Virus record (IMG/VR): IMGVR_UViG_3300037042_003141
Location: 1 to 35,634 of that record
Direction: 5' to 3' (one strand)
Origin: a virus
Length of the DNA stretch: 35,634 nt
Shown here: one piece after another, positions 6,335 to 17,159 of the stretch
Layout: each line of letters begins with the position of its first letter
Position numbering within the stretch: position 1 is the first letter of the stretch
Program-made: the position numbers and the translations under genes
The notes under the pieces: model-generated
What the model was told of the DNA's origin: nothing
Database searches by the model: none
What the model saw: the letters and a program-made list of their open reading frames with translations, nothing else

Positions 6335-6343
6335 TGTGGATAA
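6335..6343 (-). promoter_or_regulatory. Perfect DnaA box
   Basis: The 9-mer TGTGGATAA here is the complement of the consensus DnaA box TTATCCACA. A perfect copy is expected only about 0.3 times by chance on both strands of this window, and no other was seen. It borders an AT-rich tract (6300-6330) in the gap between the HNH gene and a small gene. The phage also encodes a protein with a DnaA DNA-binding domain (16647-17159). A role in replication or regulation is inference. Confidence 0.45.
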
Positions 6344-14097: not shown

Positions 14098-14124
14098 AGC
14101 CCCCTTTTGGGGGCTTTTCTTTAT
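14098..14124. terminator. Terminator between convergent operons
   Basis: AGCCCCC-TTTT-GGGGGCT forms a seven-pair perfect stem followed on the plus strand by TTTCTTTATT. It ends the rightward operon. On the minus strand the downstream sequence has few T residues, so it is weaker for transcription from the helicase gene. Confidence 0.85.
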
Positions 14125-15608
14125 TCAAAAATCCTGCGCACCGGGTCGAAGGTCAGGGTCACATCCCCCAGCTTACCGGCATCAGGCTGGTACCTCACCT
14201 TCTTCACGAATATCCCGGTTTCAGTGCTGAAAGGCACATCCCCAATGCGCGCCACGACCACACCGAGATCCGCTTTATTTGCCCAGTGGGAACTGTCGCT
14301 GATATCGTACAGGCTGATATCAGGCGCGTCCTTCTGGCCCGCACTTTTCACCGGGTGTGCCACGACGATCACCAGACAGTCGTAGCGGCGGGCAAAAGTC
14401 TTCAACTTGCGAATAGCCCTGCCGGTGTAATCGGTCACGCTCTCGTCCCGCCCGCGCACATGGTCGATCTCATTCCAAGGGTCAATAACACACACTTTCA
14501 TGCCGTGCCGGATCACAGCGGTGGTCATGCGCTCCAGCAACCAATCCAGATCATGCACGGCATCATCCTCGGCATCCGGGGCGATGAAAAAGAACCGGCG
14601 TTGGATGAACCGATCCGGCGTCAGGTGCATATCAGGCCCGTTGCCCCTTGAGCGGCGGTCGATGAAGACGTTCTCAATCTGCGCCGTAACGTAAGGCTTC
14701 ACACGCATTTCGAAGCTGGCAAGGCCGACATTCCAACCGTTCTTGTAGGCCAGATTGGTGGCAAGCTGGACGGTCCATGTTGACTTGCCGTGGCCGGGAA
14801 AGCCGGTGACGATCATGAACGCCGGTCGATAGGGCATCAGATACTCGTCTAATTTGGGGAACCCGGTCGAAACTGTCTCCATCTCCAGCTCAGGCGGGAG
14901 ATCGTCATATGTGTACACACCCGACACCGGGTAAGGCTTTGCCTGCGCCACAAGGGCCAGAACAGCGGCGGGGCCATGCGTAAGCAGAACCTCATTGGCG
15001 TCTTTGCAGTCAGGCGGATAGGTGACAAAAGAACAGCGCACCTTGTCCAACCGGCGGATCAGTTCCTTCGCCAGCCGCTGACCCGGTTCATCCGCATCAA
15101 CGGCAATGATGATGCTTTTGATTTTCGCCAAGGCATCCCACTCGTTCAGGATGAAGGCATATTTGTCGTCGCTATCGATATCGATGTCTGCGGTGCCTTC
15201 CGGCACGTTAATGAGCTTGCCGTCCTTGTCACGGGCCGGTGGCGCACCATCAGGCACCGAAACCACAAAAGGATACCCGGCGGCCATGAACGACAGGGCA
15301 TCCGGCTCACCCTCAACGATCACCAAAGAATTGGTGCCATCGATCAGGCCGGGGTCATCAAGAATGTCGCCATTAAAGAATGCTTTCGGGCAATTGGGTT
15401 TTTGCCAAAAACGCTTTCCCTTGGCGCGGTACTTTGCGCCTATCTCCCGACCATGCCGAATAAACGGAAAAACAAGAATGTCGCCATTTCCGTCAGCGAG
15501 AACTTGCCCATCCGCCACGCGCTGCGCTGAGTAAATCCCGATATCCATCGCGGCGGTCAGTATGCCGCGTTTGTCCAGCCATTCCATGTGAAGCGCGCTG
15601 ATTGTCAT
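14121..15608 (-). CDS. TOPRIM primase-helicase (T7 gp4 type) without its zinc domain
   Basis: From the ATG at 15608 this is a 495-residue protein. The TOPRIM primase part has SLVIVEGEPDALS (94-106) and IIIAVDADEPG (167-177). The hexameric DnaB/Twinkle-type helicase has Walker A GFPGHGKST (269-277) and a Walker B-like VCVIDPWNE. It should unwind the replication fork and lay primers. The zinc-binding domain that normally starts this protein is encoded immediately upstream in another frame (15493-15813). Deleting one T from the TTTT run at 15612-15615 would join the two into about 563 residues, close to T7 gp4A (566). The start used here lies near where T7's short form gp4B begins. The ribosome site is weak (AAGG 11 bases upstream). 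Confidence 0.9.
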   Translation of the reverse strand: MTISALHMEWLDKRGILTAAMDIGIYSAQRVADGQVLADGNGDILVFPFIRHGREIGAKYRAKGKRFWQKPNCPKAFFNGDILDDPGLIDGTNSLVIVEGEPDALSFMAAGYPFVVSVPDGAPPARDKDGKLINVPEGTADIDIDSDDKYAFILNEWDALAKIKSIIIAVDADEPGQRLAKELIRRLDKVRCSFVTYPPDCKDANEVLLTHGPAAVLALVAQAKPYPVSGVYTYDDLPPELEMETVSTGFPKLDEYLMPYRPAFMIVTGFPGHGKSTWTVQLATNLAYKNGWNVGLASFEMRVKPYVTAQIENVFIDRRSRGNGPDMHLTPDRFIQRRFFFIAPDAEDDAVHDLDWLLERMTTAVIRHGMKVCVIDPWNEIDHVRGRDESVTDYTGRAIRKLKTFARRYDCLVIVVAHPVKSAGQKDAPDISLYDISDSSHWANKADLGVVVARIGDVPFSTETGIFVKKVRYQPDAGKLGDVTLTFDPVRRIFE

Positions 15609-15813
15609 CGTAAAATCTACCTTGTGTCCAATTACAGTTAAAGCACCTAGCACCAACGCCGGTTTCGTCTATTCTTACCGACAAGCACGGATCAAGTTTG
15701 TGTTTACGCAGATGTGAGCATTGGGGGCAGAGCGTTTTGAAGTTTCCGCCGTTCGTCCTCACACGCCTGCCGGTTATCCCCATTTCGATCAACAGTTCTT
15801 CAGAAGTTTTCAT
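15493..15813 (-). CDS. Primase zinc-binding domain in a separate, shifted frame
   Basis: The ATG at 15813 overlaps the upstream initiator stop (ATGA). Residues 1-66 form a primase zinc ribbon: FKTLCPQC (C29, C32) and ARCFNC (C57, C60), with the helical lead MKTSEELLIEMGITGRRV. After that the frame continues for 40 residues (about 67-106) with a composition unlike the family, antiparallel to nothing known and overlapping the primase-helicase frame. The natural continuation lies one base away in the next gene. This is either a truncated, independently made zinc protein, a programmed or slippage frameshift site, or a sequencing/assembly error in a T run. Confidence 0.75.
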   Translation of the reverse strand: MKTSEELLIEMGITGRRVRTNGGNFKTLCPQCSHLRKHKLDPCLSVRIDETGVGARCFNCNWTQGRFYDDNQRASHGMAGQTRHTDRRDGYRDLLSAARGGWASSR

Positions 15814-16454
15814 ACAAAGTTTCTCCCCCTCATCAACATTTTCGCCGGTGTGAAATCGTCCTCCCACCGTTTCTGGTTCAACCACGTTGCCGCCATCGCG
15901 GTAAACACAGGATCCTGTCCGACCCGGCTGGCGGCATAAGCTTTAACACCCGCCATGATATGCTCATGGGTCGCACCGTCCTTGATGGCCTTGGCATAGT
16001 TTTCAGCAGCCTTGTGCCGAGAGTGAGCCGCCCGCTTGGGGTATGCCGACCAGAACTCGTTGAAGGCTTCTGACAATATATCTTTCTTTTGGTGGTTCTT
16101 AATGATGGTTCTCTTTAGAGGGGTGACAACAGTGTCACCCTCCCCGGTGACAACCGTGTCACCCCCCCCTGACAACTTGTCACCCTCCCCCGTCCACAAT
16201 AGTGTGTATTTGTTCGCAGCCGTCCGGCCCAATGTGTCGTGGCGGATAGTGCATTGCAAAAAGCCATCCTTGACCAGCTTTGAGATGATCCGCTGAACGG
16301 TTCTTTCCGAAACATAGGACTTCTCGGCAATGCGTGAAATTGAGGGCCAGCACTCACCAACGTCATTGGCGTGATCCGCCAAGGCAAGAAGAACAACCTT
16401 TTCATTTCCGCTGATAGGCTGCTCAAACGCCCAAGTCATGGCCTTAACACTCAT
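15810..16454 (-). CDS. Replication initiator, O-like, with internal repeats
   Basis: Started at the ATG at 16454, which has GGAG six bases upstream; the product has 214 residues. The N-terminal winged-helix domain (about 5-70) contains WPSISRIAEKSYVSERTVQR, like HTH_36 phage replication proteins. A Gly/Thr linker (about 88-112) repeats GEGDTVVT. The C-terminal domain has FWSAYPKRAAHSRHKAAENY and MAATWLNQKRWEDD, typical of phage and plasmid replication proteins. The linker DNA holds three tandem palindromes that look like origin iterons, as in the lambda O gene. It is followed by the primase gene in one coupled operon, so it probably binds the origin and recruits the primase-helicase. Confidence 0.82.
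   Translation of the reverse strand: MSVKAMTWAFEQPISGNEKVVLLALADHANDVGECWPSISRIAEKSYVSERTVQRIISKLVKDGFLQCTIRHDTLGRTAANKYTLLWTGEGDKLSGGGDTVVTGEGDTVVTPLKRTIIKNHQKKDILSEAFNEFWSAYPKRAAHSRHKAAENYAKAIKDGATHEHIMAGVKAYAASRVGQDPVFTAMAATWLNQKRWEDDFTPAKMLMRGRNFV
16121..16182. repeat. Three tandem palindromic iterons, candidate replication origin
   Basis: Inside the initiator gene lie three similar units at 21-24 base spacing: GGGTGACA-ACAG-TGTCACCC (16121-16140), GGTGACA-ACCG-TGTCACC (16146-16163) and TGACAA-C-TTGTCA (16170-16182). Each is an inverted repeat, and together they are direct repeats separated by C tracts. An AT-rich stretch lies directly beside them (16072-16118). Iterons within the initiator gene next to an AT-rich unwinding region is the layout of lambda ori. 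Origin function is inferred. Confidence 0.6.
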
Positions 16455-16517
16455 GTGGAACTCCAAGATAAAATCTTGTTCCGATGAGCCAAACACTGTA
16501 AATTGTGTTTATTCCAT

Positions 16518-16646: not shown

Positions 16647-17159
16647 CTACATGGCCCGCTCAGACTGAACTTGCGCCGATTGGCTGTCAAGTATCTTTCG
16701 CCCGTGCTTCTGGATCCCATGAAAAACGGTGCTATGATCACGGCCTGCCAACTGCGCTATGCGCGGATAGCTGTAATCCAGCTCGGTGCGAACCCGGTAC
16801 CAAAGCTCATGGCGGGCCGCAATTAAAGGCCGCTTCCTGCAGTCGCTTTGGATCAGGTTGGGGTTGATATTGTGTTTTCTTGCAACCATGCGAAGCATGT
16901 TGTGGTAGCTCTGACGTTCACCGGCCAGAGGCGTAAAGCCAGACTGAACCGACGACTGTGGCGGAACCAGCCCAGAGGGGCCAGCAACGCCCGCAAACGA
17001 GATGGGCGGGGAAAGTGCCTCAAAGCCCCCATTTGCCCGCCAGAGGGCTTCCTGTGCGGCCACAACAGCCGCTTGATCAACAATAGACACCCTGCTGGTC
17101 TTATACATGCGATCTTTGACCGCCTGATATTTTGCTTTCAACTCTTCGGCATATGTCAT
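16647..17159 (-). CDS. Protein with DnaA domain IV (DNA-binding) and no ATPase
   Basis: A 170-residue protein. Residues about 86-155 match the C-terminal DNA-binding domain of DnaA: MVARKHNINPNLI, then RPLIAARHELWYRV, and the signature RIAQLAGRDHSTVFHGIQKH (133-152), equivalent to the GRDHTTV box-recognition helix. The first 80 residues have a helical start and a Pro/Ser-rich linker, but no AAA+ motifs. It should bind DnaA-box-like DNA without being able to melt it, so it might load host replication proteins, compete with host DnaA or act as a regulator. It is coupled to rusA (ATGA overlap). A perfect DnaA box is found at 6335-6343. Confidence 0.85.
   Translation of the reverse strand: MTYAEELKAKYQAVKDRMYKTSRVSIVDQAAVVAAQEALWRANGGFEALSPPISFAGVAGPSGLVPPQSSVQSGFTPLAGERQSYHNMLRMVARKHNINPNLIQSDCRKRPLIAARHELWYRVRTELDYSYPRIAQLAGRDHSTVFHGIQKHGRKILDSQSAQVQSERAM

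Follow-up and report, generated by a model that had tools for sequence, protein, structure and literature searches.

The 35,634-base window analyzed here, which is the whole virus record, carries three tandem palindromes, probably iterons, inside its replication initiator gene, next to an AT-rich stretch. Judged from the sequence, the palindromes are, with a probability of about 87%, the binding sites of the protein encoded by the same gene and, together with the AT-rich stretch, a phage theta-type origin. Across related initiator genes, the TGACA or GTGCA iteron type was strictly associated with residue 55 in the recognition helix.

Iteron array within the initiator gene

The gene, the domains of its product, and the iterons are located as follows:

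15810..16454, minus strand: replication initiator gene, 214 aa, ATG start at 16454, with HTH_36 and phrog_270 matches
16200..16454, minus strand: winged-helix DNA-binding domain, residues 1-85 (Pfam match and AlphaFold2 model)
16269..16307, minus strand: recognition helix, residues 50-62 (DSSP on the model)
16302..16304, minus strand: Arg51 codon (helix-column comparison among relatives)
16290..16292, minus strand: Arg55 codon, the residue that accompanies TGACA iterons
16092..16184, minus strand: linker, residues 91-121, predicted to be disordered (model pLDDT) and encoded by the iteron DNA
15825..16094, minus strand: C-terminal helical domain, residues 121-210 (AlphaFold2 model)
16170-16182: iteron 1 in gene order, TGACA-N3-TGTCA, TGACAACTTGTCA on the plus strand
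16146-16163: iteron 2, GGTGACA-N4-TGTCACC, GGTGACAACCGTGTCACC on the plus strand
16121-16140: iteron 3, GGGTGACA-N4-TGTCACCC, GGGTGACAACAGTGTCACCC on the plus strand
16072..16119: AT-rich stretch (69% AT), candidate unwinding element, downstream of the iterons in the gene direction

The iterons lie approximately 270-330 nt inside the gene, with start-to-start spacings of 21 and 24 nt. The palindromes have arms of 6-8 bp and short spacers, which are 4 nt long in two sites and 3 nt in one; this corrects the earlier sequence-only reading. No other exact TGACA-N3-TGTCA or TGACA-N4-TGTCA site was found in the window (one N3 and two N4, 0 mismatches), and the AT content of 16072-16119 was equalled by just 0.8% of the 48-mers in it. 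The motif search and the 69% AT of the flank thus confirmed the tandem palindromes at intervals of 21-24 nt beside AT-rich DNA that the sequence-only reading had described. The same reading had taken the repeated GEGDTVVT linker to indicate that the coding sequence seems shaped by a DNA-binding need. The iteron DNA encodes GEGDKLSGGGDTVVTGEGDTVVT within gene 16454-15810 (minus strand), and 5000 whole-gene synonymous-codon shuffles gave 0 sites in 4241 cases, 1 site in 733, 2 sites in 26, and 3 sites in none. Thus, the repeated peptide alone does not generate the palindromes, and this claim held at the DNA level. Cumulative GC skew over the window, which had been proposed as a check, made no sharp turn at the iterons; the broad curve tracked the gene strand and was hence uninformative on the origin.

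The initiator start is likely ATG 16454 (214 aa) and not the GTG at 16496 chosen by the ORF tool. HTH_36 matched with 61.3 bits against a Pfam cut-off of 25 (E 7e-17), and phrog_270, “replication initiation protein,” covered residues 16-218 of the 228-aa ORF (E 2.4e-45). The AlphaFold2 model (mean pLDDT 83.6) predicts an N-terminal winged helix, then a disordered linker with pLDDT below 50 at residues 91-103 and 105-121, and then a helical C-terminal domain. When the model was used in a structure search, the predicted winged-helix fold matched the DnaD N-domain, CAP, LexA, and one initiator/Rep structure. PDB sequence searches returned no close relative, one match having an E of 0.46 and the best match of another search an E of 0.014. 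A possible likeness of Arg55 to an Arg of CAP draws on the fold match and on the CAP numbering and was not counted as evidence. The phrog_9327 “primosomal protein” matched residues 133-220 of the 228-aa ORF, and the modeled C-terminal helical domain is possibly the helicase-recruiting part.

Genes neighboring the initiator

The replication genes beside the initiator are the following:

14121..15656, minus strand: TOPRIM and DnaB_C primase-helicase (Pfam; phrog_239, E 8e-75)
15493..15885, minus strand: separate overlapping ORF with zinc-ribbon-like CPQC...CFNC (from the sequence), with a homologue in L001, the nearest relative found, that is also a separate ORF

TOPRIM and DnaB_C were found in one ORF of 511 aa, that is, a TOPRIM and a DnaB-type helicase in one chain, as in a T7-like primase-helicase. 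By its sequence, the CPQC...CFNC ORF is probably the primase zinc-binding part. The zinc-ribbon-like and TOPRIM-helicase parts occupied two overlapping frames in the window and in L001 and a single ORF in L447, L260, and L186. The split primase-helicase represents either two genes or a programmed frameshift. A helicase homologue was located near the initiator in 16/514 loci with differing flanks, which bears out the suggestion of the sequence-only reading that pairing with a T7-like primase-helicase is uncommon among the relatives.

A further ORF beside the initiator, 16647-17159 (minus strand), encodes a protein of 170 aa whose C-terminal end is a DNA-binding domain like DnaA domain IV (Bac_DnaA_C, 50.7 bits). 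It is kept in L001, which has this DnaA_C ORF, the primase-helicase, and the zinc-ribbon ORF in common with the window. The sole exact DnaA box, TTATCCACA, was located at 6335 in the window.

Iteron arrays in related initiators

Relatives were sought with the HTH domain alone, to keep the linker from biasing the sample. Among the 107 non-redundant initiators, which include the window itself and relatives from one whole-protein query, 46 had at least two exact palindromes of the same half-site after the HTH domain, vs 2.1% among their synonymous shuffles and 3.0% among 636 control ORFs. At least three were present in 22/107, compared with practically none in the shuffles or controls. A relaxed search found palindromic repeats above all 20 of their own synonymous shuffles in 74/107 initiators, where at most about 5 were expected; in the remaining 33, no array beyond their own shuffles was detected by this search. 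A clear palindromic array was likewise not detected by the present search method in six of eight named phages.

The architecture was conserved. TGACA or GTGCA arrays were present in 133 non-redundant initiator genes, and the spacing of the iteron centers in these peaked at 21-24 nt. The sites used more than one reading frame in 59 of these genes, and TGACA sites were never found in the frame that makes TGA a stop. The DNA downstream of the array was more AT-rich than that upstream in 86/128 relatives. The place and spacing of the array were thus kept across relatives, whereas the iteron sequence was particular to each lineage. L001 carries GGTCG-N5-CGACC four times and has a different recognition helix. 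Exact TGACA iterons were found in 0/13 loci of close protein relatives with an HTH ORF. This result was considered as a refutation of the iterons and rejected, since the same linkers carry other iterons at the same place. Conservation in relatives, proposed as a check by the sequence-only reading, therefore applies to place and spacing and not to the iteron sequence, which differs by lineage and follows the protein.

Within one close family (122 distinct rows), helix SKRSVMNH paired with GTGCA/GTGAA iterons, helices SKRSVMRH and SRRSVIRH with GTGACA iterons, and helix GRSTVKVH with GGGGCAG iterons, while helix DRSTVRRH paired in most cases with GTGTAGGC or a close variant of it. Class-wide genome samples contained few relatives (16/369 and 16/385 genomes). 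In the Yersinia phage YeP2 (L819, gene 838-1854), TCAGAATCTGA-like repeats follow one another at 15-nt intervals in the linker of the initiator, closer together than the usual 21-24 nt.

Residue 55 and iteron type

For the tests of the helix/iteron code, rows were made non-redundant, and those with a poorly covered helix were removed prior to counting. Among the matches listed, Arg55 was present in 37/37 initiators with TGACA-N4 pairs and 11/11 with TGACA-N3 pairs (48/48 non-redundant initiators found motif-first), and in 0/64 non-redundant initiators found motif-first with GTGCA pairs. The absence of Arg55 in the GTGCA set had been predicted in writing before that set was analyzed. When the motif-first and protein-first sets were pooled, with genes bearing both iteron types omitted, Arg55 occurred in 61/61 genes with TGACA iterons (59 motif-first, 1 protein-first, and the window) vs 0/72 with GTGCA iterons (55 motif-first and 17 protein-first). 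GTGCA-type genes encode Asn, Tyr, Ser, Asp, and other residues at this position. Arg51 was common to both types (46/48 TGACA-type and 64/64 GTGCA-type relatives).

Column 55 separated the TGACA and GTGCA classes perfectly, and the runner-up among the 82 columns reached 72%. The helix/iteron switch persisted between domains that are 76% identical outside the helix. When the helix columns were left out of tree building, the best tree required 33 changes for iteron type and 33 for residue 55, and all six independent pairs on supported branches were concordant for the two (p 0.03). The tree is short and weak; therefore, the column ranking is the stronger argument for the association.

Arg55 is needed rather than sufficient for TGACA iterons. 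Among 156 non-redundant protein-first initiators, at least two TGAC sites were found in 5/18 with Arg51 and Arg55 vs 0/138 others, and 13/18 with both residues lacked two TGAC sites. The contig of one of the five positives (L587) also yielded L314, which heads the query alignment. Arg55 was also present in 9/25 initiators with other iteron types and in 68/69 of a wider TGAC class, the one exception being Leu. Since one helix residue goes with one version of the site across many related phages, the sites are partly predictable from the protein. We infer from these sequences that residue 55 would contact bases 4-5 of the half-site directly.

Specificity of the motif scans

Totals of the motif scans are lower bounds. 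TGACA palindrome pairs were found in viral contigs in at least 120 rows for each spacer (N3 and N4), vs 10 rows in all for the control, one palindromic pair with a shuffled half-site. For TGACA-N4, among the matches listed, the first pair was inside an HTH-hit ORF in 44 of 112 loci, and in 38 of 112 no ORF of 120 aa covered it. The remaining TGACA-N4 ORFs (25 non-redundant, among the matches listed) included 3 with HTH_36, 4 with phrog_270, and structural proteins. TGACA-N3 pairs lay inside HTH-hit initiator genes in 11 of 117 loci among the matches listed. The N3 pairs thus fell mostly outside such genes, and the motif alone is not diagnostic.

The 114 TGACA-N3-TGTCA pairs outside HTH-hit ORFs among the matches listed (L267-L383), many of them in AT-rich DNA, had spacing peaks at 21-22 and 30-32 nt. 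One TGACA-N4-TGTCA palindrome was located in a VTKSVTKTVTALSP repeat of an E. coli lambda O-like replication protein (L052:1045-1920). DNA related to this gene occurs in 287/5426 E. coli genomes, but the protein is apparently of the lambda O type and not a member of the HTH_36 initiator family; this count was therefore not used.

Proposed origin and alternative explanations

In the proposed origin, the winged-helix domain would bind each palindrome as a dimer, and the array, with about two helical turns per site, would form an O-some-like complex. The adjoining AT-rich DNA would then open, and the C-terminal domain may recruit the phage's own primase-helicase. We infer dimer binding, unwinding, helicase recruitment, and origin use, the working probably being that of lambda ori. 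The claim of the sequence-only reading that initiator-binding iterons lie inside the initiator gene gained strong sequence support from the shared place and spacing, the multiple reading frames, and the joint switching of helix and iteron.

The palindromes could instead be operators at which the HTH protein represses or tunes the operon that it belongs to. The winged-helix fold is common to repressors such as those of the LexA and MarR types, and the covariation of helix and site indicates binding, not replication as such. However, the sites are flanked by AT-rich DNA some 270-330 nt into the gene, like lambda ori, the families matched by the protein are those of annotated replication initiators, and the primase-helicase gene adjoins the initiator gene; we consider a purely regulatory role unlikely. 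The 6-8 bp arms with short spacers could also fold into stem-loops in the mRNA, but RNA hairpins would leave both the link to a recognition-helix residue and the helical-turn spacing unexplained, which makes this explanation quite improbable.

It is also conceivable that the repeats are a feature of the protein, a repetitive flexible linker whose peptide entails the DNA palindromes; GEGDTVVT is indeed repeated, and the linker is predicted to be disordered. Yet the palindromes were lost in synonymous shuffles, the iteron type follows residue 55, and the peptides differ in the 59/133 relatives whose sites fall in more than one frame. The mixed reading frames refute this as a full explanation, and we give it hardly any credence. 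An origin bound by the protein of its own gene thus remains the preferred reading.

Comparison with known origins

The origins of lambda (ori in gene O), P22 (gene 18), and phage L (gene 18) resemble the proposed origin of the window in having mid-gene iterons of about 18-20 nt, spaced at 20-24 nt, with AT-rich DNA downstream. In lambda gene O, the starts of the four iterons are 20, 24, and 23 nt apart. The iteron sequence of the window differs from that of lambda, and the initiator is neighbored by a primase-helicase, whereas the neighbor of lambda O is a P-type loader. As a control, lambda O matched Phage_rep_O with 123 bits and did not match HTH_36, while a Pfam search of the window initiator gave no Phage_rep_O match at E 0.1. 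The proposed origin in the window is therefore a functional parallel to that of lambda and not a member of its group: the lambda ori architecture suggested by the sequence-only reading stands for layout and function (place, spacing, and AT-rich flank) but not for ancestry.

According to published work, the coding-region iterons that the initiators appear to bind differ between lambda, P22, and L (PMC8022706). Work on the Stx phage origins (P27 and 933W) places iterons within the O gene, with added iterons lengthening the protein, and reports that synonymous iteron changes abolished transformation by a Stx phage plasmid (PMC7466680). These phages resemble the window in their intragenic iterons but have lambda-type iterons and an O protein. 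Repeats were also reported within an O-like gene of Pseudomonas phage MD8, likewise an initiator gene with repeats, although the published passages give no iteron sequence or code (PMC8508860); our search found no clear palindromic array in this gene. The “DNA replication protein O” of E. coli phage PhiR55_1 has five GTGCA/GTGAA-type linker iterons and Asn55, which fits the residue-55 rule, whereas its iteron class differs from that of the window. HTH_36 proteins are named in a study of Stx phage types, the main text of which does not contain the word “iteron” (PMC8951638).

Implications for HTH_36 phage initiators

Intragenic, type-specific iterons are already known for lambda, P22, and L. 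A survey of titles and abstract openings in mainly open-access literature revealed neither an HTH_36-wide iteron pattern nor the residue-55 rule. It seems somewhat probable that HTH_36 phage initiators make up a very large group of self-contained units of replication, each gene bearing its own binding sites and the helix residues, 55 foremost, largely fixing the iteron sequence. If so, the protein sequence could be used to locate and type origins across phages, and units whose codes differ could replicate together without cross-talk, like incompatibility groups. In most phages, replication origins are unmapped, and if the rule holds, their annotation from sequence would become feasible throughout a widespread family. 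The numerous initiator-site pairs found in nature would also provide a ready set for studying how a protein and its DNA site, both encoded in one piece of DNA, change their specificity together.
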